From the NCBI GenBank assembly GCA_938074745.1, contig CALJEJ010000024.1, forward strand, positions 1 to 35,510: a stretch of DNA of 35,510 bases. The letters run 5' to 3'. Below, in pieces: positions 13,030-30,542 of this stretch (within the stretch, counting starts at the first letter, position 1; each line of letters begins with the position of its first letter). Under the pieces are notes generated by a model. That model had not been told where the DNA came from. It made no database searches and worked only from the letters and a program-made list of their open reading frames with translations. The position numbers and the translations under genes are program-made. Origin of the DNA: an uncultured Endomicrobiia bacterium (GTDB taxonomy: Bacteria > Elusimicrobiota > Endomicrobiia > DTEH01).

Positions 13030-14520
13030 ATGATTTCAAAATATAAAACATTTCCTGGCGGATACAAGTTTACTAACATTTCAGGCCAGCCACAAGAAAA
13101 ATTGGTTGAATTAAAAATACCACAGATAGTTATTATTCCCTTAAAACAAGGTTTTGGTAATGAAGTCCCGCCACTGGTAAAACCCGGTGATAAGGTTAAA
13201 GCAGGACAAATCATTGGCAGAGATGATAATTCAGTTTCTTCTCCTGTGCATTCAACAGTCAATGGTGAAGTTTTAGAAATAAAGAAAATAAATTATTTCA
13301 AACAGGAAATAAATTCTGTTATAATAAAATCAGATGGGACACCTGACTGGCAACCGTTAGAAGGACACAATGCTGATTGGACAAAACTACCTGTTGAAAA
13401 AATAGAAGAATTAGTTTATCTTTCCGGAGCATCTTCGTTAGACAGAGAAGGTATACCAACCAGATTTAAAAGTTCAATTATCTTACCTCAAGATGTTGAA
13501 AATCTTATTATTCACGGTATAGGTTCAGAGATATATAATTTATCCTTAGGTGTCCTGCTTGCTGGCAAAAAAATATTTCATTTCGTTGACGGAATAAAAA
13601 TCCTGAAAACAATTTTACCAAAATCAAAAGTATATTTGGCATTAAATAGATACCATAAAAACTTAATTGAACAAATATCAAAACTTACTTCTGGTTTAGA
13701 CTGGCTTGAAATCCAGCCGTTAGAACCAAAATATCCACAAGGGTATGATGAAATGCTTGTCCCTACATTGCTCGGGAAAAAGTTCCCATACGGATATTCA
13801 GCAGCAAATATAGGTGTTGTAGTATTAAACATTCAGGCGGTACTACATGTTTATGAAGCAGTAGTTGAAGGTAAACCTTTAATAGAACGAACAATAGCGT
13901 TATGTGGTGAAGGGTTTAAAGAGAATCTTCATATAAAAGTTAGAGTTGGTACACCTCTTAAAGATATAATTTCTCAAAGATTAAAAGAAAATATAGAAGT
14001 AAGAATCGTATTAAACAGTCTTCTAACAGGTGTACGACTTAAAGATTTATCATTGCCAATAAATAGAACTTATTCCCAAATAATATCTATACCTGAAAAC
14101 AGAAACAGGGAATTTCTTTCTTTTTTAAGGCCTGGTGTAAAAAGAGATTCTTACAGTAATACTTTTCTGTCAAAATTTTTACAATTTTTTAAAAAAGAAC
14201 TAAATACAAACATCCACGGTGAACCAAGACCATGTATTTCTTGTGGTTATTGTGAAGAAGTTTGTCCTGTAGGTATTATACCTCATCTTATTTATAGATA
14301 TGTTGAAAGGAACATAATAGAACAAACTTTGATAAATTACGGAATTTTTGACTGTATAGAATGTAATTTATGCAGTTATGTTTGTCCATCAAAAATACCG
14401 TTGGCAAAATTTATTAAAGATGGACAACAAAAACTTATAAATCTTGGCTGTGACCGTTCTTTAAGGATACTGCCATATTTTGATTTAAAAGGGCTTGAAG
14501 AGTATAGAGGAGTAAAATGA
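13030..14520 (+). CDS. RnfC-like subunit with two C-terminal 4Fe-4S motifs
   Basis: FPGGYKFTN...PLVKPGDKVKAGQIIG N-terminus; CISCGYCEEVCPVGIIP and CIECNLCSYVCPSKIPL. Confidence 0.85.
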   Translation: MISKYKTFPGGYKFTNISGQPQEKLVELKIPQIVIIPLKQGFGNEVPPLVKPGDKVKAGQIIGRDDNSVSSPVHSTVNGEVLEIKKINYFKQEINSVIIKSDGTPDWQPLEGHNADWTKLPVEKIEELVYLSGASSLDREGIPTRFKSSIILPQDVENLIIHGIGSEIYNLSLGVLLAGKKIFHFVDGIKILKTILPKSKVYLALNRYHKNLIEQISKLTSGLDWLEIQPLEPKYPQGYDEMLVPTLLGKKFPYGYSAANIGVVVLNIQAVLHVYEAVVEGKPLIERTIALCGEGFKENLHIKVRVGTPLKDIISQRLKENIEVRIVLNSLLTGVRLKDLSLPINRTYSQIISIPENRNREFLSFLRPGVKRDSYSNTFLSKFLQFFKKELNTNIHGEPRPCISCGYCEEVCPVGIIPHLIYRYVERNIIEQTLINYGIFDCIECNLCSYVCPSKIPLAKFIKDGQQKLINLGCDRSLRILPYFDLKGLEEYRGVK

Positions 14521-14527
14521 GTTAATA

Positions 14528-14560
14528 GTTGATAGTCCACTGTCCATAGTCCACAGAGGA
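14528..14560. repeat. Period-7 repeat between the rnfC-like and nqrB-like genes
   Basis: gatagtccactgtccatagtccacag: tagtcca ctgtcca tagtcca. Confidence 0.85.
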
Positions 14561-14567
14561 TAGATAA

Positions 14568-15605
14568 ATGAAACAAGTTAGAATATTGATTGATAAATTA
14601 TACAAAATAAAATCGCTGTCAAAATTTAAGCCAGTACTTAATGCTATTGACGAGTTTTTCTTTGGTACAGATAAAGTTACTGTAATTTCCTTGCGTTCTC
14701 CACATATACTTGATAATATTGATATAAAACGGTATATGTCAACAGTAATAATTGCACTGCTTCCTGCAACAATTGCAGCAATATACTTTTATGGTTTAAA
14801 AGTTTTATTGATTATTGCTGTTTCTTACATCTTTGGTGGTTTAGTAGAAGTAATTTTCGCTATCGTAAGAAGAAAAGAAATTCATGAAGGATTTCTTGTT
14901 ACAGGGCTTATATTTCCTTTACTATTACCACCGACTGTACCTTTATGGGTAGTAGCGGTAGGGATAATATTTGGTGTTTTTATTGGCAAGGAAGTGTTCG
15001 GCGGGACCGGAAGAAATATTTTCAATCCTGCATTAGTAGGTAGATTGTTTATCACAATATGTTTTCCTGTGATAATGACTACACAGTGGCAACAACCGTT
15101 CAGTGATGCTATTACTTCTGCTACACCTTTGATGATTTACAAAACTACACATACTTTGACACCTCTTTTAGACCTTTTATTAGGCAAAACTCCGGGAAGT
15201 CTTGGAGAAACATTCCGTTTAGGGATAATTCTTGGTGGTATATTTTTGATAATTACAAAAGTAGCGAACTGGCGTGTTCCTTTATCTTATTTACTTTCTG
15301 TTTTTATATTTTCGTTTATTGGGAACAAATTATGGCCACAAAAGTTTGCTCCGCCTGTGTTCCAAATTTTAACAGGTGGACTTTTGTTTGGCGCATTTTT
15401 TATGGCAACAGATCCTGTAACAACACCGTTTACAAAACAAGGTAAATGGATAGCAGGTATACTTTGTGGATTGTTAACAGTACTAATTAGAGGTTTATCT
15501 GGTTATGTTGAAGGTGTAATGTTTTCTATAATTCTTATGAACGGTTTTTCTCCATTAATAGACCAGTTAGTACTTAAAGTAAAGTATGCAACTTCGCTGC
15601 GGTAA
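14568..15605 (+). CDS. NqrB/RnfD-family membrane subunit (NqrB-like)
   Basis: HEGFLVTGLIFPLLLPPTVPLWVVAVGIIFGVFIGKEVFGGTGRNIFNPALVGR; flavinylation-like TSATPL. Confidence 0.88.
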   Translation: MKQVRILIDKLYKIKSLSKFKPVLNAIDEFFFGTDKVTVISLRSPHILDNIDIKRYMSTVIIALLPATIAAIYFYGLKVLLIIAVSYIFGGLVEVIFAIVRRKEIHEGFLVTGLIFPLLLPPTVPLWVVAVGIIFGVFIGKEVFGGTGRNIFNPALVGRLFITICFPVIMTTQWQQPFSDAITSATPLMIYKTTHTLTPLLDLLLGKTPGSLGETFRLGIILGGIFLIITKVANWRVPLSYLLSVFIFSFIGNKLWPQKFAPPVFQILTGGLLFGAFFMATDPVTTPFTKQGKWIAGILCGLLTVLIRGLSGYVEGVMFSIILMNGFSPLIDQLVLKVKYATSLR

Positions 15606-15617
15606 TCATTCTTAGGT

Positions 15618-16190
15618 ATGAAAGAGAAAATATCAATAATACTATTTGTAATAGTGTTAGGTAGTATATCATCAGGATTACTTGTAGGTATAAATTCTTG
15701 GACAAAACCTAAGGTGATAAAGAACAAAGAATTAAAACTGAAATCAAGTATACTTGATGTTTTCGGAATTAAATATGAAAAAGATACCATTGAGAGTGTC
15801 TTCAGTCAGAATATAGAAACATTTGAAAAAAACGGCACTGTATTTTATAGAACAAAAACTAATGAGATTGCATTTAAATATTCAGGTTCTGGTCTTTGGG
15901 GACCAATCTCAGGTGTTATTGCTTTGAATCCAGATTTAGATACTATTAAAGGGATAAAAATACTTCATCAAGAAGAAACTCCAGGATTAGGTGGCAGGAT
16001 TGCAGAACAAGAGTTTTTGTCACAGTTTAAAAATAAAAAGATTACTCCAAAACTCGTAATAGTTGTAAAGGAAAAAGCAAAACAAGAAAATGAAGTTGAC
16101 GGGATAACCGGTGCTACTATGACTTGTAAATCATTTGAGGAACTGTTGAATAAAGATATTAAGGAGCATTTAGAATGTTTAAAAAAATAA
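15618..16190 (+). CDS. NqrC/RnfG-family FMN-binding subunit
   Basis: SGLWGPISGVIAL, EETPGLGGRI, and C-terminal GITGATMTC flavinylation motif. Confidence 0.88.
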   Translation: MKEKISIILFVIVLGSISSGLLVGINSWTKPKVIKNKELKLKSSILDVFGIKYEKDTIESVFSQNIETFEKNGTVFYRTKTNEIAFKYSGSGLWGPISGVIALNPDLDTIKGIKILHQEETPGLGGRIAEQEFLSQFKNKKITPKLVIVVKEKAKQENEVDGITGATMTCKSFEELLNKDIKEHLECLKK

Positions 16191-16804
16191 AAAAACTAAC
16201 TTATACAAGACCATTTAGAATAATAATAAATGGCCTCTGGAAAGATAATCCAATATTCTGTATGGTATTAGGTATATGCTCATCTTTGGCAATAACTAAC
16301 CGTGTAGAGAACGCAATTGCTATGGGTTTAGGTGTAACTTTTGTAACTGTAGCTACTTCAGTTATAATTTCAGCAATGAGAAATTTTATTCCATCACGAG
16401 TTAGAATGATAACATACATGGTTGTTATTTCTACATTTGTAATTTGTGTTGACCAGTTCTTGAAAGCGTTCTTCCCAACAATATCTGAAGCAATGGGTCC
16501 TTATGTAGGATTAATTATTACGAACTGTATAGTTATGGGTAGAGCAGAAGGGTTTGCAATGAAAAACCCTGTTGTTTATTCGTTTTTGGACGCTTTATCT
16601 TGTGGTATCGGTTATACTTATACGCTTCTTATTATATCAATAATAAGAGAAATATTAGCATTCGGGACAATATTAAGATATAGAGTTATGCCACAAACTT
16701 GGACAAACTGGGTAGCATTAGCAATGGCGCCAGGAGCATTTGTTTTGCTGGCTTTATATTTATGGATAATGAGAACACTTGCAAAAGTAGAACCTGAGAA
16801 ATAG
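16175..16804 (+). CDS. NqrD/RnfE-family membrane subunit
   Basis: NPIFCMVLGICSSLAITN, NCIVMGRAEGFAMKNPV, IIREILAFGTI. Confidence 0.9.
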   Translation: MFKKIKKLTYTRPFRIIINGLWKDNPIFCMVLGICSSLAITNRVENAIAMGLGVTFVTVATSVIISAMRNFIPSRVRMITYMVVISTFVICVDQFLKAFFPTISEAMGPYVGLIITNCIVMGRAEGFAMKNPVVYSFLDALSCGIGYTYTLLIISIIREILAFGTILRYRVMPQTWTNWVALAMAPGAFVLLALYLWIMRTLAKVEPEK

Positions 16805-16815
16805 GTACGAAAAAT

Positions 16816-17406
16816 ATGAATACACATCCTCTACTAATATTTATAGCGGCAATTTTTCCACACAATATCGCGTTAACTTACATACTCGGTATGTGCCCTC
16901 TAATAGCAATATCAAAAAATCTTAAGACTGCTTTTGGTATGGGGATATCAGTAATTTTTGTAGTGACTTTGACTGCGGTTATAAATTGGTTCGTATATAA
17001 TTTGATTTTATTACCTACAAATAGCCAAATAATTTCGTATGTAATTTTTATTATAACAATAGCGGCATCTGTGCAACTTGTAGAAATGCTTCTTGAAAGA
17101 TTTTTCCCACCACTACAAGTGGCATTTGGTATATTTTTACCATTGATAACTGTCAACTGTATAGTTCTTGCAGTTTCACTATTTATGGTATTAAGAGAAT
17201 ACGATTTCATAAAAACGGTATGTTTTGCTTCAGGTAGTGCTATTGGATGGGCAATTACAATTGTAACAGTTTCAGCAATAAAAGAAAAATTGTTACTCAT
17301 AGCTGATATACCGAAGGGATTAAAAGGGCCTGCAATAACAATGATAATTTTAGGAATTTTATCACTTGCTTTTATGGGATTTGGAGGGATGGTGAAAATA
17401 AGATGA
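16816..17406 (+). CDS. NqrE/RnfA-family membrane subunit
   Basis: NIALTYILGMCPLIAISKNLKTAFGMG; FLPLITVNCIVLAV. Confidence 0.9.
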   Translation: MNTHPLLIFIAAIFPHNIALTYILGMCPLIAISKNLKTAFGMGISVIFVVTLTAVINWFVYNLILLPTNSQIISYVIFIITIAASVQLVEMLLERFFPPLQVAFGIFLPLITVNCIVLAVSLFMVLREYDFIKTVCFASGSAIGWAITIVTVSAIKEKLLLIADIPKGLKGPAITMIILGILSLAFMGFGGMVKIR

Positions 17407-18533
17407 ATTTAATAACACCTGTTATTTTAATGAATATAATTTTGTTCATAATAACAGTGTTACTTATTTTTGCAGAAAGTGTCCTTGTACCACACAAAAT
17501 ATGTAAAGTTGTGATTAACAAAGAAAGAGTATTTACAACTGAAAGTGGAGCTTCATTACTTAGTTTTTTTACTAAAAACAAAATATTTATTCCCTCAGCC
17601 TGTGGTGGGAAAGCAACCTGTGGCCATTGTAAAATAAAAGTTTTAAACGGTGGTGGACCAATCTTACCTACCGAAGAAGTTTTTATTACTCAAAAGGAAA
17701 AATCTGCAGGGATACGTCTTGCATGCCAGGTGAAAATCAAACAAGATATTGAAGTTTATCTCCCTGAACATTTGTTTGAAGCAAAAGAATATCAAGCAGT
17801 TGTTGAAGAAATCAGTTCACTTACTCATGATATTAAACATTTTACTTTAAAACTTTTAGAACCAAAAACAATAAACTTTAAGCCAGGCCAGTATATACAA
17901 ATTAAAGTTCCGGGGACTGAAGAGTTCCGTGCATATTCTATAGCTTCTTCTCCAAGGCAAAATGATAGAATTGAATTAATAATACGACTTGTTCATGGTG
18001 GATTGTGTTCAACATATATGCACAATGTACTTGAGGTAGGTGATAAAGTTGTATTCACAGGACCATTTGGCGAGTTTTTCCTTCGTGAAGAGTCTGACAA
18101 GGAAATAATATGTATCGCTGGTGGATGTGGTATGTCACCAATAAGGTCTATAATTTTATATTTAGCTGAACTTGGGATGCCAAGAAAAGTTACATATTTT
18201 TTTGGTGCGAGAACAAAAAAAGACTTATTCTATGTTGAAGAGATGACAGAACTTGAAAAAAAATATCCAAATTTTAAATTTATTCCTGCGTTGTCTGAAC
18301 CAGAACCAGAAGATAAATGGGAAGGCGAAGTCGGACTTATAACACAAGTTGTGGAAAGATATCTTGATATATATATGAACGGGCGATATGAGATATATTT
18401 ATCTGGAAGATATGAGGGAGCAGGTGTATTAGAGTCATATTTATGTGGTCCACCACCAATGATAGACGCAGCAATAAAAGTTCTGACAAAAAAAGGTGTG
18501 CATATAGAAAATGTTTATTATGATAAATTCTGA
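17403..18533 (+). CDS. nqrF: NqrF-like 2Fe-2S / FAD NADH-oxidizing subunit
   Basis: N-terminal TM; IFIPSACGGKATCGHCKIKVLNGGGPILPTE; RLACQVKIKQDIEV; ferredoxin-reductase domain RAYSIASSP and YLCGPPPMIDAA. Confidence 0.9.
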   Translation: MNLITPVILMNIILFIITVLLIFAESVLVPHKICKVVINKERVFTTESGASLLSFFTKNKIFIPSACGGKATCGHCKIKVLNGGGPILPTEEVFITQKEKSAGIRLACQVKIKQDIEVYLPEHLFEAKEYQAVVEEISSLTHDIKHFTLKLLEPKTINFKPGQYIQIKVPGTEEFRAYSIASSPRQNDRIELIIRLVHGGLCSTYMHNVLEVGDKVVFTGPFGEFFLREESDKEIICIAGGCGMSPIRSIILYLAELGMPRKVTYFFGARTKKDLFYVEEMTELEKKYPNFKFIPALSEPEPEDKWEGEVGLITQVVERYLDIYMNGRYEIYLSGRYEGAGVLESYLCGPPPMIDAAIKVLTKKGVHIENVYYDKF

Positions 18534-18560: not shown

Positions 18561-19487
18561 GTGAAAGAAAGGTTCAAAGTCTGGCTTAAAGCAATAAGGT
18601 GGCATTTTTTTACTGCTACTATAGTGCCAGTAGTATTAGGTGCTGCGATAGCATGGTATCAATTAGGTAAGTTTAACTGGATAAATTTCTTTTTAGTTTT
18701 GATTGGTGGAATTTTTATCCATGCAGGATTAAATTTAGCAAATGATTATTTTGATCATACTTCAGGTGTGGACGAAGTTAATCAGTTCCCAACTATTTTT
18801 AGTGGTGGAAGTCGTGTAATCCAAGAAAAACTTATTGCTGCTGAGAAAGTACTTATAGCAAGTATTTGCTGTTTTCTTATAGGGATTGGTATTGGGTTAT
18901 ATCTTAATTCAATTTTGCCAGGGAATATACTCCTAATTATAGGTATCGTAGGAATATTTTTAGCATTTTTTTATACTGCTGACCCGCTTAGGATTGGGTA
19001 TACAGGTATTGGTGAGATATGTTGCGGTATAGGGTTTGGTCCTGTTATGGTTTTAGGTTCATATTATGTCCAAGCACAGCAACTATCATGGCTACCATTT
19101 TTTGGTTCAGTCCCTGTAGGTATTCTTATTGCTTTAGTTCTTTACATAAACGAATTTCCTGACTATGATGCTGACAAAAAAGTAGGGAAAAAAACTTTAG
19201 TAGTTCTTTTAGGAAAGAAGAAAGCAATTAGAATCTATTATTTACTTTTGTGGCTTGTTTATCTTTGGATTATTTTAGGAGTGATTACAAAACTCTTACC
19301 TTATTTTGCATTGATAGTATTTTTTACACTTCCATTGTGTCTTAAAGCAATTAATATAGCAAAGTCAAATTATGATAAAATTTATGAATTACTTCCAACT
19401 AATGCTATAACTGTTGTACTACATTTAACAATAGGTCTTTTTTTAAGCGGAAGTTATATATTAGAAAAAATGATTTTCGGTAATTAA
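18561..19487 (+). CDS. UbiA-family prenyltransferase, MenA-like
   Basis: NDYFDHTSGVDEVN and NEFPDYDADKKVGKKTLVVLLGK; GTG start with RBS aaggag. Confidence 0.85.
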   Translation: MKERFKVWLKAIRWHFFTATIVPVVLGAAIAWYQLGKFNWINFFLVLIGGIFIHAGLNLANDYFDHTSGVDEVNQFPTIFSGGSRVIQEKLIAAEKVLIASICCFLIGIGIGLYLNSILPGNILLIIGIVGIFLAFFYTADPLRIGYTGIGEICCGIGFGPVMVLGSYYVQAQQLSWLPFFGSVPVGILIALVLYINEFPDYDADKKVGKKTLVVLLGKKKAIRIYYLLLWLVYLWIILGVITKLLPYFALIVFFTLPLCLKAINIAKSNYDKIYELLPTNAITVVLHLTIGLFLSGSYILEKMIFGN

Positions 19488-21508: not shown

Positions 21509-22414
21509 ATGATTACAGAGATTGAAAACAAAAATAAAATAGACCTAAGAAATATTTACGAACCAATATCTACAGAATTATCCAATGTTGAGATAGAACT
21601 GAAGAACCAAATAAATGATATAGTTGGTCAATTCACAATGGCTAGTACTAAACAAGTTATTGAACACTTTTTTAGAACTCCGGGGAAACTTCTTCGTCCC
21701 GCGTTAGTTTTATTATCCGCTAAATCTGTTACTAATCACAAATCACTAAACACTAATCACTTGGTTCAATTAGCCACAGCAGTTGAACTTATCCATAACG
21801 CTTCTCTTATCCATGATGACATAATTGATGAAGCAACTGTCCGTAGAGGCCAGTCAAGTATAAACAACAAATTTGGGAACAAAATTGCAGTCCTTGCAGG
21901 TGATATATTATACGCACGCGCTTTTTCTATTTTGATAAATAGTCCACGGTCCACAGTCAATAGTCAGATATTAGAAATTATTTCTAAATGCGTAGAAAAG
22001 ATGTGTGATGGCGAAATTAACGAACTTAGTATTGGAGTAGAGCCTTTAGGCTCGTCTACCAGGACTAAAATCTCTGCTATTGAAGAATATCTGAAGATAA
22101 TAGAAAACAAAACTGCATCGTTTATGTCTGCTTGTTGCGAGTGTGGTGCAATATTAGGTGCAGCAGAAGAAAAAATACTTAAAGCATTAAAAGATTTTGG
22201 ATTTTACTTTGGTATGACTTATCAAATAGTTGACGATTATATAGACAGAGATTCAGGAGTAGAACCTTTAGGTTCGTTACCGGGGCTAAAGCCACTACTC
22301 CAATATGCAGACGAATTTGTTCTTAAGTCAAAACAATCAATTGAAATTTTGCCTGATTCTGTTTTTAAAGAAAAATTATTTGATTTAGTTGATTATATCT
22401 CAGGTCAAATATGA
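21509..22414 (+). CDS. Polyprenyl synthetase (trans-isoprenyl diphosphate synthase family) with several repeat-derived insertions
   Basis: GKLLRPALVLLSA, ELIHNASLIHDDIIDEATVRRG (first DDxxD), KTASFMSACCECGAILG, YQIVDDYID (second DDxxD). Confidence 0.85.
   Translation: MITEIENKNKIDLRNIYEPISTELSNVEIELKNQINDIVGQFTMASTKQVIEHFFRTPGKLLRPALVLLSAKSVTNHKSLNTNHLVQLATAVELIHNASLIHDDIIDEATVRRGQSSINNKFGNKIAVLAGDILYARAFSILINSPRSTVNSQILEIISKCVEKMCDGEINELSIGVEPLGSSTRTKISAIEEYLKIIENKTASFMSACCECGAILGAAEEKILKALKDFGFYFGMTYQIVDDYIDRDSGVEPLGSLPGLKPLLQYADEFVLKSKQSIEILPDSVFKEKLFDLVDYISGQI
21727..21763. repeat. Period-7 repeat inside the polyprenyl synthetase CDS
   Basis: ctgttactaatcacaaatcactaaacactaatcac; encodes SVTNHKSLNTNH. 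Confidence 0.8.
21940..21969. repeat. TAGTCCA-type period-7 repeat inside the polyprenyl synthetase CDS
   Basis: tagtcca cggtcca cagtcaa tagtcag; encodes NSPRSTVNSQ. Confidence 0.8.
22034..22055. repeat. Hairpin element inside the polyprenyl synthetase CDS
   Basis: ggagtagagcctttaggctcgt; encodes GVEPLGS. Confidence 0.9.
22256..22301. repeat. Convergent pair of hairpin elements inside the polyprenyl synthetase CDS
   Basis: ggagtagaacctttaggttcgtt then accggggctaaagccactactcc; encodes GVEPLGSLPGLKPLL. Confidence 0.9.
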
Positions 22415-23057: not shown

Positions 23058-24077
23058 ATGAAAAACAAAATTGCAATAGTTAGTTTAGTGGCAGGTTTAG
23101 TTGTTTGGACAATTGGTAATATATATTCTGAACCAGTAGAATCAGGTTTTGGAAAAATCAAACTCAATGGACTTCTTCAGTTCTGGTACCAAAATGACAA
23201 CAGTGCTACACCTAAAGATACATTTCGGCTTCGTAGAGCAGAAATAAAACTCTCAGGTGAAATAAACCCTGTTGCTTCTTGTGCTGTGATGATTGACCCG
23301 GCACAGGTAAGAGAAGACGATGTTACAAAAAAGCAGCATGGAGAAATAACTTCTGTTGGAAGAAAATCACCATTACAGGATTTCGTGATAAGTTTGAAAC
23401 CACATAAATGCTTTTTTATTGATTTTGGACAATTTAAAATCCCGTTTGGTATGGAAGGGCTTGAGAGTTCAGCAAAACTTGACCTTGTAGAACGCTCCGC
23501 TCTTTCTTCACAATTTAAATGGTCTGATTACAGAGATATCGGAATTGCTATCAAGGGCGATTTTGAAGTAGGTGATATAAAAATTCAGCCTACAGTTGGG
23601 TTCTTTAACGGTGAAGGACAAAATAAACTTGATGTAAACGAACCGATAGATTTTGCAAGTAGGTTGGTTGTGAAACCGATTGATGTATTACATTTAGGTA
23701 TAGGTTACTATAATGGCAAAAAAGGTGAGACTGAGAAAGATAATTCCCGTACCGGGATAGAAGCAAAGTTTGTTAAGGGACCGATTTCTATTTATGGCGA
23801 ATATGCAACTGGCAAAAGCGAGGACAAAGAGAAACTGACATATTACATTACTGCTTGTTATAAATTCCTTAATTCTTGGCAAGCAGTGATAAGATACGAT
23901 TGGTATGACCCTGATACTAACAAAGTTGATGATGAAAAACATGAAGGCACAATCGGGCTAAATTACTTCATTGAAAAACATAATGCAAAAATACAACTCA
24001 ATTATGTTTATCGTGGAGAAAAAGGAACAATGGTTGACGACGATGTTATTAGATTAAATGTTCAAATAAGTTATTAA
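23058..24077 (+). CDS. Outer-membrane porin, phosphate-selective porin O/P-like
   Basis: Signal peptide; GKIKLNGLLQFWYQND, FRLRRAEIKLSGEI, GQFKIPFG; beta-barrel pattern ending VIRLNVQISY. Confidence 0.75.
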   Translation: MKNKIAIVSLVAGLVVWTIGNIYSEPVESGFGKIKLNGLLQFWYQNDNSATPKDTFRLRRAEIKLSGEINPVASCAVMIDPAQVREDDVTKKQHGEITSVGRKSPLQDFVISLKPHKCFFIDFGQFKIPFGMEGLESSAKLDLVERSALSSQFKWSDYRDIGIAIKGDFEVGDIKIQPTVGFFNGEGQNKLDVNEPIDFASRLVVKPIDVLHLGIGYYNGKKGETEKDNSRTGIEAKFVKGPISIYGEYATGKSEDKEKLTYYITACYKFLNSWQAVIRYDWYDPDTNKVDDEKHEGTIGLNYFIEKHNAKIQLNYVYRGEKGTMVDDDVIRLNVQISY

Positions 24078-24086
24078 AAAGAGCAT

Positions 24087-24821
24087 ATGTCAACAAAAAT
24101 TAAAGAAGATATTTTAATAAGAATGCAGAATGACTTAAAAAGGGCACTAACTAAACCAGTAGAAAAAAGAAAATGGGCTATGTTAATTGATTTAAGAAAA
24201 TGTGTTGGCTGTCATGCTTGTACTATTGCCTGCAAAGCAGAAAATGTTTTACCTCCGGGAGTTGTGTATCGTAGAGTTCTTGAAATAGAATCAGGTAAGT
24301 ATCCTGATGTAGAAAGACATTTCGTACCAGTATTATGTAACCATTGTGATAAAACTCCATGTGTAGATGCCTGCCCGGTTAAAGCAACAAAAAAAAGAGT
24401 AGATGGTATTGTAGATATAGATTATAATCATTGTATTGGTTGTAGAGCGTGTCTAAATGCATGTCCATATGGAGCAAGAACATCAGATTTTGGCAAGTTC
24501 TATACCCAAGACACACCAAAAATTCAACCATATGAATTGAGGCCTGCGTTTGAATATCAGAAAAAATGGTATAGGAAAAAAGGTAACTCACCAATAGGAA
24601 ATGCTAGGAAGTGCCATTTTTGTCTTCACAGAATAGAATCCGGACTACTTCCGGAATGTGTAGTTACTTGTATTGGCAAAGCAACATATTTTGGTGATAT
24701 AGAAGACAAAAGTAGTTTAATTTTTGAAATTATAAATAGCAACAATGTAAAAGTATTGAAGGAAAAACTTAAACTAAAACCAAGAGTATATTATATAGGA
24801 CTTAAAGAGGAGTTGTTGTGA
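24087..24821 (+). CDS. Four-cluster 4Fe-4S electron-transfer subunit (TtrB/NrfC-like)
   Basis: [68 protein letters not shown]. Confidence 0.9.
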
Positions 24822-25852
24822 AACAAAAAATATTTCTTTTTCTTATAGCAATATCATTCATAGTAGGATTAATTGGCCTTTATAGATATCTTACAATTGG
24901 ACATTCTTTGTTGAACTTAAACAGTGCAGTCCCGTGGGGTTTATGGGTTGCAGTTTATATATGGTTTGTAGGAATCTCTGCTGGTAATTATTTTATTGTG
25001 ATGTTCTGGAATATTATAAAAAACAAGAAGTTGTCTAATCTTACGACCATCAGTGCCATTCTTTCTTTATCTACACTTTCAGCAGGGTTGTTGAGTATTT
25101 TACTTGATCTTGGACATATTGAAAGATTTTATAAGTTATTTATAAGTGTTAATTTTTCCTCTGTTATGGGTTGGATGGGTTTTTTTTATAGTATTTTTAC
25201 TTTCATACTACTTGTTACTCTTGTGTTAAGTTTTATAAAAAAAGATGTAACAACAAAATTTTATGTTGCCGGAATAGTAATCTCATCTCTTGTAATTTTA
25301 GTTGAAAGTATGCTTTTTGCAAGACCTCCAGGTAAACATTGGCATAGTATTATCTTCCCGATACATTTTTTTGTAACTTCCATTCTATCAGGAACAGGTA
25401 TTCTGATGTTTATAGCAGGTTTATTAAAAAAAGATAATACAAGTTTAATAAGTAAAACTCTGTTAGTTTTGCTTATCGTGAACTTAGTTGTTGAAATTAT
25501 TGACATAGTATCAATGGGAACTATCAGTAATTTAAAGATAATCTATTTATTAACTGCTAATCTTATACCTATAATTTTGTTGATTTTAAACATTCATACG
25601 TTAAAAACATTTGTAGGACTTTTTTGTGGAATTGGAGTTTTGGCTACAAAATATGATTCATTAATTACTGCTCAACTAAAACAACCATTTAAAGGTTTTG
25701 AAAATGCTTTTTTTGAACCTGGTTTGGCATTTAGTTATATCCCATCATTTACAGAATGGTTGGTTACTATATTTTTAATAAGTTTTTCCGTTACGTTTTT
25801 TTATGTTTTTTATAAATCAATTACAAGCCTAAGTTCAAAACTGGTAAGATAA
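24818..25852 (+). CDS. NrfD/TtrC/PsrC-like membrane quinone-interacting subunit
   Basis: Polytopic; [53 protein letters not shown]. Confidence 0.88.
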
Positions 25853-25854
25853 AA

Positions 25855-28800
25855 ATGAAAGAAGAAAAAAACATTGAAAAGTTCTGTAAGAAAATTATTG
25901 AGTTAAAACTTACCCGAAGAGATTTTCTTAAATCTTCAGTTTTTCTGGGAGGTTCAGCAATTTTATTAAGTGAACTAGAAAAATTGTATGCATTGGTAGA
26001 AAAGGTATCTAAAGATAAACTTACTACGATACAACAGTATGAACTTTCCAAAGCAGAAAATATTTTACATACAGTTTGTCTACAGTGTAATACTGGCTGT
26101 GGTATAAAAGTAAAACTTTTTAATGGTATAGCAGCAAAAATAGACGGTAATCCATATAGTCCATGGACTATGACTCCTCATATCAATTATCAAACACCGC
26201 TTGTAGAATCAACCACAATAGATGCTGCTATTTGTCCAAAAGGGCAAGCAGGAGTGCAAACCGTTTATGACCCATATCGGATTGTAAAAGTACTTAAGAG
26301 AACAGGACCAAGAGGTTCTAATAAATGGAAAACAATTTCTTTTGAACAAGCAATAAATGAGATTGTCAACGGCGGAAAACTTTTCGCTGATATTGGCGAA
26401 GATAGATATATTGAAGGATTTAAAGATATATGGGCATTACGCGATGCAAAAATTTCTAAAGATATGGCAAAAGCAGTAAAAGAAATTCTGGATGAAAAAG
26501 ATAAAGAAAAAAAGAAATCACTTGTTGAAGAGTTTAAAATAAAATTCAAAGAGTATCTTCATACTCTAATTGACCCTGACCATCCAGATTTGGGTCCCAA
26601 AAATAATCAATTTGTTTTTATGTGGGGAAGAATGAAAGCAGGAAGAAGTGATTTTGTTAATCGGTTTGTTAAAGACTCCTTCGGCTCAGTTAATGCTCAT
26701 GGACACACAACTGTATGTCAGGGTTCATTATATTTTGCTGGTAAAGTAATGAGTTATCAATGGGATTATGATGAAAAAGATGCTAAAATGAAATGGACAA
26801 AAGAAAAGAAATTTTACTGGCAGTGTGATACTGCGAATAGCGAATTTATAATCTTTGTTGGCGCATCACCATTTGAAGCGAACTATGGTCCACCTTTAAG
26901 AGTAGGTAAAATCACAGAGAACCTTGTTAATAAAAAACTTAAATTTGTAGTGATTGACCCAAGATTTTCTAAAACAGCAGCGAAAGCAGAAAAATGGATA
27001 CCAATAAAACCAGGAACAGAAGCTGCATTTGCTTTAGGAATGATAAGGTGGATTATTGAAAACAAAAAATATGACAGTAAATATCTTACTAACGCGAATA
27101 AAGCTGCTGCTAAAGAAGATAAAGAACCAACCTGGTGTAACGCTACCTGGCTTGTAAAAATTGAAGATGGAAAACCGGGTAGATTTTTACGTGGGTCTGA
27201 TATTGGCGTTCCTAAAGAAAAAAGAATCTTTAAAGATAAAAAAACTGCTGAAGAAAAACACTATGATTTTGATGCCTTTGTTGTTTTGAAAAATTATAAG
27301 ACAATAACTTTTGATCCAAACGATGAAAATAATCCTGTAGAGGGAGATTTGTTTGTGAATACTGAAGTTAACGGGATTAAAGTAAAAAGTGCATTTCAAA
27401 TTCTCTGGGAAGAAGCAAGCAAAAACACAATAGAAAAATGGGCAAAGATTTGCGGTGTTAAAGCAGATGATATAATTGAATTAGCAAAAGAGTTTACTTC
27501 TCATGGTAAAAAAGCTGCTGCTGATATTCATCGTGGAGTCTCACAGCATACAAACGGTTTCTACAATGTATATGCCTGGTTAACACTTAACCTTTTAATT
27601 GGAAATTATGACTGGAAAGGTGGTATGGTTCAACTTTCTACTTTTAATCATTTAGGTGAAAAAGAAGGTCAGCCTTATAATTTGAAAAAATTGCATCCGG
27701 ATAAAATGACACCGTTCGGTATTGATATAATCCGGCATGGAGAGTATGAGAAATCAACTCTTTTTAAAGGTTATCCAGCAAAAAGGCCATGGTATCCAAT
27801 AGCCAGTGATGTGTATCAAGAAATTATACCTTCAATAGGCGATGCTTATCCTTATCCAGTAAAAATACTTATGATGTATATGGCTGCACCAACATATTCT
27901 CTGCCAGCAGGTAATACAAATATTGATGTCCTTGTTGATACAAAAAAGATACCTTTAGTGATTGCTTGTGATATAACAATAGGAACAAGTTCAATGTATG
28001 CTGATTACATTTTCCCTGACCTTTCTTACCTTGAACGCTGGGAATTTCACGGCTCACATCCATCAGTAACTCAGAAAGTTCAACCTATCCGCCAACCAAC
28101 TATCGCTCCTCTTGTTGAAACAGTCAAAGTGTTTGGTGAAGAAATGCCAATATGTCTTGAATCTGTACTTCTGGCAATTGCTGAAAAACTTGGACTTAAA
28201 GGATTTGGTAAAGATGGATTTGCTGCCGGGATGGATTTTAAAAGGCCAGAAGATTTTTATTTAAAGATGGTTGCCAACGTCGCTTATGGTGAAAAACCTG
28301 AAGGAAAAGATTCTGTTCCAGATGCTGATCTTAAAGAAATGAAAATTTTCTATGAAGCTAGAAGACATCTACCTAAATCTGTTTTTGATCCTGTAAAATG
28401 GGAAAAAGCATGTGGTAGTGAATACTGGAAGAAAGTTGTCTATGTACTTAATCGTGGAGGAAGATTTCAAAATTATGAAGATGCATATGAAGCTGAACAG
28501 GCTAAAAATAAGTATGGTAAACTGATAAATCTTTATTCTGAAAAACTTGCTAAAACAAAAAATTCTATGACGGGAGAGACATTCTCAGGAGTAGCTACTT
28601 TTATTCCAATTACAGATTGTTTAGGTCGTCCTATAGAAGATGAAAAAGAAGGTTATAATTTAAATTTGATAACTTATCGGGAAATATCTCAATGTAAGAC
28701 ACGCACAGCACCAAACTATTGGTTGTTGAGCCTTTTACCAGAAAATTTTATTCTTATAAATTCACAAGATGCAAAAAATCTTGGGTTAAAAGATGGTTCT

Positions 28801-29133
28801 ATAGTCAAGGTAACCTCTGCATCAAACCCTGATGGAATATTAGATTTAAAAAATGGCAGAAAAATTTATATAATTGGTAAAGTCAAAGTAACAGAAGGGA
28901 TTCGTCCTGGTGTAGTAGCTTTTTCACTGGGATATGGTAATTGGGCAACAGGATCAAGTGATTATATTGTGGATGGAAAATTAATAAAAGGAGATTCTCG
29001 TAGAGGAAAAGGAGTTCATTGTAATCCTGTTATGAGGACTGATCCATATTTGAAAAACACTTGTCTTGTTGATTTAGTTGGTGGTAGTGTTTCATTCTAT
29101 GATACTAAGGTTAAACTGACGCCTATAAGTTAA
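25855..29133 (+). CDS. Molybdopterin oxidoreductase catalytic subunit, tetrathionate/selenate reductase-like (TtrA family), Tat-exported
   Basis: Twin-arginine [55 protein letters not shown] (probable Mo-ligand Cys); [29 protein letters not shown] blocks resemble TtrA. Confidence 0.85.
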   Translation: [1092 protein letters not shown]

Positions 29134-29201
29134 TCTTAAACATAGTGAAAAGAGGATTCCATTTTTCAGTTAACAGAACTTTAATCTTAAGGAGGTAAAA
29201 A

Positions 29202-29387
29202 ATGTTTGGGTTAGGTATGCCAGAACTAATTGTGATTCTTGTTATTGCATTACTTATTTTTGGTGCATCACGTTTGCCTGAAGTTGCAAGAGGGCTCGGT
29301 AAAAGTATTGGCGAGTTCAAAAAAGGTCTAAAAGAATCAGAAGAAGAAATTAAAAAACTTAGCGACGAAGAAAAGAAAAGTGGTTAG
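29202..29387 (+). CDS. tatA: Sec-independent translocase TatA/E
   Basis: [45 protein letters not shown] aaggagg. Confidence 0.95.
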
Positions 29388-29420
29388 TGATTAGTGATTA
29401 GTGGTTAGGTGATTAGGTGG
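29384..29420. repeat. Period-7 repeat (AGTGGTTAGTGATTAG) between tatA and the S23 gene
   Basis: ggttagtgattagtgattagtggttaggtgattaggtgg. Confidence 0.85.
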
Positions 29421-29424
29421 AAAG

Positions 29425-29790
29425 ATGAAAGTAAAAAGTTATACCGAACTGTTGGTCTGGCAAAAAAGTATTGAGTTGGTAAAATTAGTATATGCACTAA
29501 CTAAAGATTTCCCAAAAAGGGAAATTTATGGATTAACCAGTCAAATGAGAAGATCTGCTGTATCAATTCCATCAAACATTGCCGAGGGATTTATGAGACA
29601 GCATAAACTGGAGATAATTCAATTTTTATTCATTAGTTTAGGGTCTTGTAGTGAATTACATACACAGTTGGTTATCGCTAAAGAGTTAGGATTTATTTCC
29701 GACGAACAACTTAAACACATAACCACTAACCACTTGTTTTATGTTAGCAAGATGCTAAGAAATCTAATCAAGAGTCTAAAAAAATCATGA
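29425..29790 (+). CDS. S23/Avd-like four-helix bundle protein
   Basis: SYTELLVWQKSIELVKLVYALTKDFPKREIYGLTSQMRRSAVSIPSNIAEGFMR. Confidence 0.9.
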   Translation: MKVKSYTELLVWQKSIELVKLVYALTKDFPKREIYGLTSQMRRSAVSIPSNIAEGFMRQHKLEIIQFLFISLGSCSELHTQLVIAKELGFISDEQLKHITTNHLFYVSKMLRNLIKSLKKS

Positions 29791-30542
29791 TCCACAAATC
29801 ACAAACCACTAACCACGAACAACTAACTACTAACCACGAACCACTCACACTAATTGAGCATCTTGAAGAACTTAGAAGACGAATTATTATTTGTTTAATA
29901 GCAGTTTTTGTCTGTAGTATAGTTTGCTATTTTTATGTAGACAAAATCTTATTTATTTTATCAAGACCAGTTAACAAACTCGTTTTCCTAAAACCTACTG
30001 AAGCATTTTTGACAAAATTGAAATTATCTTTTTACAGTGGATTTTTTGTTTCTATGCCAGTTATAATTTATCAAATATGGAAGTTTGTTAGTCCTGGGTT
30101 GTTGCCTAAAGAAAAACATTATATTTACTGGATTGTCCCAACTTCATACTTGTTGTTTATCACAGGTGTGCTGTTTGCTTTTTTTGCAGTGTTACCTGTT
30201 GGGATAAAATTTTTACTCTCTTATGCTACAGAAAGTATCCAACCATTGATTTCTATTAGTGCATATATATCTTTTGTAATAATTTTTCTATTAGTGTTTG
30301 GTATTGTTTTCCAATTACCACTTATAGTTTTGTTTCTTACAAAATTAGGTGTGATTACTCCAAAATGGTTAGTTACAAACCGTAAATATGCGATATTAGT
30401 TGTTTTTATCTTAGCAGGAATACTTACACCTGGACCGGATGTCTTTTCACAATTTTTAATGGCAATACCAACATTGTTACTTTATGAGTTAAGTATTATA
30501 ATTAGTAAAATAGTCCATAGTCTACAGTCCATAAAAAAATGA
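29787..30542 (+). CDS. tatC: Sec-independent translocase TatC
   Basis: LIEHLEELRRRIIICLIAV, FLKPTEAFLTKLKLSFYSGFFVSMPVIIYQIWKFVSPGL, GILTPGPDVFSQFLMAIP. Confidence 0.95.
   Translation: MIHKSQTTNHEQLTTNHEPLTLIEHLEELRRRIIICLIAVFVCSIVCYFYVDKILFILSRPVNKLVFLKPTEAFLTKLKLSFYSGFFVSMPVIIYQIWKFVSPGLLPKEKHYIYWIVPTSYLLFITGVLFAFFAVLPVGIKFLLSYATESIQPLISISAYISFVIIFLLVFGIVFQLPLIVLFLTKLGVITPKWLVTNRKYAILVVFILAGILTPGPDVFSQFLMAIPTLLLYELSIIISKIVHSLQSIKK
29793..29851. repeat. Period-7 repeat forming the 5' end of the tatC CDS
   Basis: caaatcacaaaccactaaccacgaacaactaactactaaccacgaaccact; encodes QTTNHEQLTTNHEPLT. Confidence 0.9.

Follow-up and report, generated by a model that had tools for sequence, protein, structure and literature searches.

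A recurrent, early-branching relative of Na+-NQR carrying two [4Fe-4S] motifs in the subunit at the NqrA position

By a widely accepted view, Nqr arose from Rnf through the loss of RnfB and the gain of NqrF. Where, then, does an operon belong that combines NqrF with an iron–sulphur subunit resembling RnfC? Such an operon lies at positions 13030–18533 of a 35,510-nucleotide contig (CALJEJ010000024.1; hereafter the window) from an uncultured Endomicrobiia bacterium. An original prediction, made from the letters of the window and their open reading frames (ORFs), described an RnfC-like protein in the NqrA position, with NqrF present and RnfB absent, and suggested an intermediate between Rnf and Nqr. 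The ORFs and family scores confirmed this description of the operon. Our analysis further indicates that the hybrid operon is a real, recurrent and early-branching relative of Nqr, which, judging from its genes, most likely works like Nqr.

The region contains six intact tandem genes on the + strand, overlapping or tightly spaced, in the order C-D-G-E-A-F, which we scored with NCBIfam/Pfam profile models. The first gene, hC (13030–14520), encodes an NqrA/RnfC-type subunit of 496 amino acids that exceeded the rnfC cut-off (265 bits) and also matched the NqrA family along its full length (170 bits). It is followed by hD (14568–15605), an NqrB-like membrane subunit of 345 amino acids with the flavinylation motif DAITSAT (NqrB family, 311 bits; rnfD, 267), and by hG (15618–16190), an NqrC-like periplasmic FMN subunit with the covalent FMN motif DGITGAT (nqrC, 110 bits; rnfG, 84). 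The NqrD-like hE (16175–16804; nqrD, 216 bits; rnfE, 183) and the NqrE-like hA (16816–17406; nqrE, 189 bits; rnfA, 183) each supply two Cys for an intramembrane [2Fe-2S] cluster. The last gene, hF (17403–18533), encodes NqrF (303.5 bits, above the cut-off), with a membrane helix, a [2Fe-2S] ferredoxin domain, and FAD (RAYS) and NADH domains. Profiles underlie all six assignments, joined by alignments for hC and hD, an AlphaFold model for hC, motifs for hG, hE, hA and hF, and trees for hC, hE, hA and hF. Flavin and [2Fe-2S] motifs are retained in the E, A, G and F subunits of the hybrids, with covalent FMN motifs in both NqrB and NqrC and four Cys in NqrD/E. No rnfB gene was present within the six-gene operon. 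The strings on which the prediction had drawn (HEGFLVTG..., IGKEVFGGTG, TSATPL, GLWGPISGV, ETPGLGG and IIHGIGSEIYNLSLGV) were all recovered in the translations.

To characterize the protein in the NqrA position, we aligned 81 C/A subunits from RnfC, the hybrids and NqrA. GGAxFPT and NxxECEPY occur in canonical RnfC, with some variants; the hybrids carry LDREGIPT and HGxGSEPY or similar, and NqrA has neither. In hC, the former FMN loop (residues 135–147; 13432–13470) reads SSLDREGIPTRFK, replacing the VGxGGAxFPTHVK of RnfC, and the former N-[GA]-x-ECEPY flavin/NAD motif (residues 157–172; 13498–13545) reads ENLIIHGIGSEIYNLS. Both of the CxxCxxCxxxCP motifs that had been noticed in this gene are present, CISCGYCEEVC at residues 402–412 (14233–14265) and CIECNLCSYVC at residues 442–452 (14353–14385). 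Each is invariant in 28 of 28 full-length hybrids, so that all eight cluster Cys are kept; across these hybrids, just 57 of the 496 positions of C are invariant. SLBB-like and ferredoxin domains are joined in hC by a linker of the NqrA type, about 51 residues long (14086–14232): it measures 49–55 residues in full-length hybrids and 50–53 in NqrA, against 14–18 in every RnfC, the sole exception among hybrids being the 24 residues of reduced, 381-amino-acid C forms from Firmicutes. AlphaFold modelled hC with confidence (pLDDT 89, pTM 0.91), and the best structural matches were RnfC chains, with NqrA next, a ranking towards which the canonical RnfC rows of the input alignment may have biased the model. 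On these sequence comparisons, the C subunit is NqrA by descent and linker, and RnfC by its clusters.

Could the operon be a normal Rnf whose rnfB has been displaced? The host genome (1.52 Mb, 94% complete) has a single further NqrB/RnfD gene and a single clear RnfB; the two belong to a complete canonical rnfCDGEA-B operon on a different contig, whose RnfC has an intact NGCECEPY motif. Since this second locus is complete in itself, a displaced rnfB is ruled out, and the hybrid is a second complex, separate from canonical Rnf. The original prediction had regarded an rnfB elsewhere as evidence against it; the gene literally exists, but it belongs to its own Rnf operon and does not complete the hybrid. 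Between rnfA and rnfB of that canonical operon lies a repetitive coiled-coil-like ORF with TQQMIDEGNKR repeats (L068:8002–8538). A second NQRA_N match in the host genome (L002/L003) is not another pump: on contig C31, a 510-amino-acid RnfC-like protein adjoins MetV-/MetF-like genes (L003:10986–14041), an arrangement comparable to the RnfC2-MetVF methylene-tetrahydrofolate reductase of acetogens.

The search for RnfC–NqrF neighbourhoods that the original prediction had proposed showed that the six-gene order recurs in other genomes. The hybrid operon was found in about 30 genomes, the named ones mostly Omnitrophota, a total that includes G334 and one Firmicutes genome, G400. Twenty loci have the full order C-D-G-E-A-F, although F is cut by the contig end in one of them (L014); the remaining loci are truncated by contig ends, have no F of the ordinary type (L018) or encode a reduced C. 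Identical gene order in many other genomes rules out chance or mis-assembly. Scanning bacterial genomes yielded 17 close relatives (C identity 55–73%), almost all of them under the label Omnitrophota, as well as shorter relatives in Firmicutes/Tenericutes bins. In the sample of the phylum that holds the Omnitrophota loci, 21 of 384 genomes carried the hybrid. The host's own phylum, which appears distinct from that larger one, had it only in the host genome and G334 among 341 genomes, and both also carry canonical Rnf genes. In the NqrE-like subunit of the G334 hybrid (L090:4031–4600), Ser replaces one of the four Cys expected for the intramembrane [2Fe-2S]. A gene for a Rex-type (NADH/NAD-sensing) repressor lies directly upstream of C in five loci (L009, L018, L021, L023 and L163).

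Subunit phylogenies, another check that had been proposed, placed the hybrids outside Rnf. NqrD/RnfE and NqrE/RnfA are paralogues, and each roots the other in the E/A tree, where hybrids and Nqr formed one clade apart from Rnf (support 98 in both halves) and the hybrids were monophyletic (90 and 98). In the concatenated D+E+A tree, hybrids plus Nqr separated from Rnf with support of 100/100, the hybrids themselves received 100/99, and Nqr grouped with the cluster-bearing relative L176 and NqrA-less forms at 96/89. Forcing the hybrids to group with the organism's own Rnf was rejected (p-AU ~1e-68), forcing all two-cluster forms into one clade was weakly rejected (p-AU 0.03), and the position of the NqrA-less branch was unsettled (p-AU 0.12). 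All NqrF, including that of the hybrids, formed one clade against monooxygenase reductases (98/97). In the C tree, which is limited by long branches (L176, L171 and the NqrA stem), hybrid C and NqrA split from RnfC with support of 100. L176 (G349:C17), itself divergent and related to Nqr, has a C subunit of 461 amino acids with two clusters, a radical SAM gene and MenA; the tree puts it on the side of Nqr (94/86), apart from the hybrids. These trees give good support to the hybrid operon as the sister group of Nqr, split off after the acquisition of NqrF. The C subunit in the NqrA position would descend from RnfC. By parsimony, a single recruitment of NqrF and a single loss of the FMN motifs of C probably preceded the divergence of the hybrids from Nqr, and the Nqr branch shed the clusters afterwards.

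The same trees bear on whether an Nqr operon recently exchanged its nqrA for an rnfC, an origin with which the score of C over the RnfC family cut-off and the presence of a canonical rnf operon in the host would agree. However, C has the linker of NqrA, and its tree joins it to NqrA and sets it apart from all RnfC, the organism's own included, which speaks strongly against a recent replacement; C and the membrane core part from Rnf together, with Nqr; and the organisation is common to about 30 genomes. Such a secondary chimera is strongly disfavoured and, in our estimate, highly improbable. What the prediction had said of an Rnf/Nqr intermediate holds in that NqrF takes the place of RnfB and that C has shed its FMN/NAD motifs and kept both [4Fe-4S] motifs; the trees refine it to a sister of Nqr and not a chimera.

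Compared with Na+-NQR (NqrABCDEF; 7xk3, 8a1u), the hybrid shares the gene order, an NqrF with FAD and [2Fe-2S], the NqrC/D/E motifs, the N-terminal extension and quinone-site glycines of NqrB and the NqrA-type linker in C, and its core subunits fall with Nqr and not with Rnf. It differs in its shorter NqrB, C and F, in its position as a sister outside the canonical clade and in the two complete [4Fe-4S] motifs of C. We do not class it as canonical Na+-NQR because its C carries cofactor motifs that NqrA lacks. With Rnf (RnfCDGEAB; 7zc6, 9eri, 8ahx) it has in common homologous core subunits and a C of the same fold with a C-terminal 2x[4Fe-4S] domain. We do not class it as Rnf either, because RnfB, the poly-[4Fe-4S] ferredoxin-oxidising subunit, and the FMN/NAD motifs of C are absent; in addition, the NADH site is on the input side, from NqrF, C has the extra linker, and the core groups with Nqr. 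NqrA-less NqrBCDEF are known from Pseudothermotoga, C. ultunense and Ca. Izimaplasma (PMC4148951, PMC5924567, PMC6256511). Like the hybrid, they have an NqrF-fed core without a normal NqrA and occur in anaerobes, whereas the hybrid has a full C of 496 amino acids as its first gene. The two NqrA-less rows sampled here, L173 and L181, form a separate branch without the NqrB N-terminal extension. L181 (6141–9996), from pILYOP01 of the cultured Fusobacterium Ilyobacter polytropus, is an NqrBCDEF-like operon with a short NqrB lacking that extension; having no C/A gene, it was rejected as a cultured example of the hybrid. One Omnitrophota survey lists 'Nqr' in a single bin, with no subunit detail (PMC8542988). 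We found no description of a cluster-bearing Rnf/Nqr hybrid in the open-access literature; as far as we searched, the hybrid is undescribed.

How did the clusters fare on the way to NqrA? Two NqrA proteins from the host's phylum (L096 and L097; genomes G189 and G188), in otherwise normal Nqr operons, lack the first motif and keep the equivalents of C442, C445, C448 and C412 in the alignment, which we take, from the usual pairing in 2[4Fe-4S] ferredoxins, to be ligands for exactly one [4Fe-4S]. The C subunits form a graded series of FMN plus two clusters (RnfC), two clusters (hybrid), one (L096/L097) and none (NqrA). Gradual decay would predict such one-cluster forms, and cofactor-free NqrA works in Nqr, so the hybrid might be a normal Nqr in which the ancestral RnfC [4Fe-4S] clusters are kept purely for the folding of C. 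Yet the hybrid clade, whose depth equals that of Nqr, has retained all eight Cys, in contrast to the other lineage, from which they have gone; we regard such relic clusters as distinctly unlikely. Reyes-Prieto et al. (2014; PMC4014512) proposed that Rnf was duplicated, RnfB lost and NqrF recruited, and that the loss of RnfB left RnfC non-functional, its NAD and FMN sites and cluster Cys decaying afterwards. The hybrid resembles this hypothetical intermediate in having lost RnfB, recruited NqrF and retained the rnfCDGEA order; it differs in that the loss of the sites was staggered, the clusters outlasting the arrival of NqrF. From its sequence, the hybrid pump looks like a surviving version of this transition step.

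We then turned to the fate of the electrons. The original prediction had placed an Fe-S exit where the quinone site of NqrA would be. Published structures locate the quinone site in NqrB, at G141 and the N-terminal helices AH-I/AH-II, and replacement of G141 in V. cholerae NQR would block quinone (PMC10643135). In hD, a 47-amino-acid N-terminal extension of the NqrB type (14568–14708) precedes the LDNIDIKRYM block (11–32 residues in RnfD), and a Gly-Gly pair at residues 90–91 (14835–14840) aligns with G140/G141 of V. cholerae NqrB. The extension occurs in all full-length hybrids and Nqr and is absent from RnfD and NqrA-less rows. Of 15 hybrids sampled, 14 carry the Gly pair and L172 shows G-V instead; none of the RnfD rows carries it, and Bacteroidota NqrB rows (Prevotella, Parabacteroides) have G-L, with the first Gly only. 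An Fe-S exit replacing a quinone site in NqrA is thus not supported in that form, the site being that of NqrB and its features being kept; a cytosolic Fe-S exit could exist in addition.

The neighbouring genes also concern quinones. A MenA-type prenyltransferase (18561–19487, + strand; TIGR00751, 134.5 bits, above the cut-off) is a conserved neighbour, with MenA near the operon in 13 loci and directly downstream in many, and a polyprenyl diphosphate synthase (21509–22414, + strand) is the most conserved one (16 loci). Further downstream, a candidate terminal reductase (24087–29133, + strand) comprises a TtrB/DsrO-like Fe-S protein, an NrfD/DsrP-like membrane subunit and a TtrA-like molybdopterin subunit of 1092 amino acids. 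The surrounding TtrBCA-like respiratory molybdoenzyme operon (23058–30542) has an OprP-type porin upstream and TatC downstream.

We therefore favour, with a probability of roughly two in three, an early-branching Na+-NQR relative that would work as a Na+-pumping NADH:menaquinone oxidoreductase. Read from gene content, motifs, phylogeny and the linkage to quinone-tail genes, the electron route, the Na+ specificity and the occupancy and role of the clusters would be as follows. NADH would reduce the FAD and [2Fe-2S] of NqrF, from which electrons would pass through the intramembrane [2Fe-2S] of NqrD/E to the FMN of NqrC, and on through the FMN and riboflavin of NqrB to menaquinone at the NqrB site, this passage being coupled to Na+ export. 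The menaquinone pool would feed an anaerobic reductase. C, predicted not to bind FMN or NAD, would offer ligands for two [4Fe-4S] clusters close by the riboflavin of NqrB, and these most likely hold or relay electrons. The clusters could be an electron store, supplying the second electron for two-electron quinone reduction (preferred), a second outlet or structural.

Several observations weigh against this oxidoreductase. The invariance of every cluster Cys suggests a use beyond the non-redox role of NqrA, one that a simple quinone reductase does not need, and Na+ cannot be told from H+ with the sequence data at hand. Searches for the futalosine family (PF02621) and MenB, intended as support for menaquinone, were negative: the 94%-complete host genome yielded no MenB and no MqnA/MqnD, and 23 other non-Firmicutes hybrid genomes tested yielded no member of the MqnA/MqnD family. 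The quinone head group may therefore be scavenged or made by another route.

In Rnf, the RnfC clusters receive electrons from the RnfD riboflavin over 11.7 Å and pass them to FMN and NAD (PMC9588780). In the hybrid, the FMN/NAD outlet is lost and the clusters could form an open end; both motifs are invariant, as are only 57 of 496 positions of C in all. The pump might then have two outlets, quinone and, by way of the clusters of C, a soluble acceptor such as ferredoxin or another partner; in reverse, Na+ influx could drive the partner's electrons to NADH or quinone. Conserved operon neighbours, however, are only quinone-tail genes, the Rex regulator of the five loci, radical SAM proteins and sensor kinases, with no partner gene; the quinone site is retained in NqrB, and ferredoxin reduction by NADH, being uphill, would drive no pumping. 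We consider two outlets rather unlikely. A broader proposal, which we hold as tentative, is that the hybrids are a third type of pump beside Rnf and Nqr, one whose NqrA is redox-active. NADH electrons would go both to menaquinone at NqrB and to the two [4Fe-4S] of C, which would serve as a reservoir or as a further outlet to the cytosol. The input module would be exchangeable, because in some members an NqrF-ferredoxin/NuoE fusion and a HydB/NuoF-like NADH module stand in for NqrF or duplicate it. In L018 (12426–15867), L179 (2483–6770) and L175 (7736–9077), an NqrF-type membrane helix and [2Fe-2S] domain are fused to a NuoE-like domain, and the fusion gene adjoins a second thioredoxin-like 2Fe-2S protein; L018 and L179 also have a NuoF/HydB-like protein with extra 4Fe-4S motifs. 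The fusion replaces NqrF in L018 and follows a normal NqrF in L179. This set looks like a swapped and perhaps bifurcating NADH input module.

For the Rnf/Nqr family, the hybrid clade supplies an intermediate between Rnf and Nqr, none having been found described in the literature searched, and its form matches the one predicted by the 2014 model (PMC4014512). It suggests an order of steps in which the input swap to NqrF, the loss of FMN from C and the quinone site of NqrB came before the loss of the Fe-S clusters. The function of NqrA thereby becomes testable, by comparing a cluster-bearing with a cofactor-free form.

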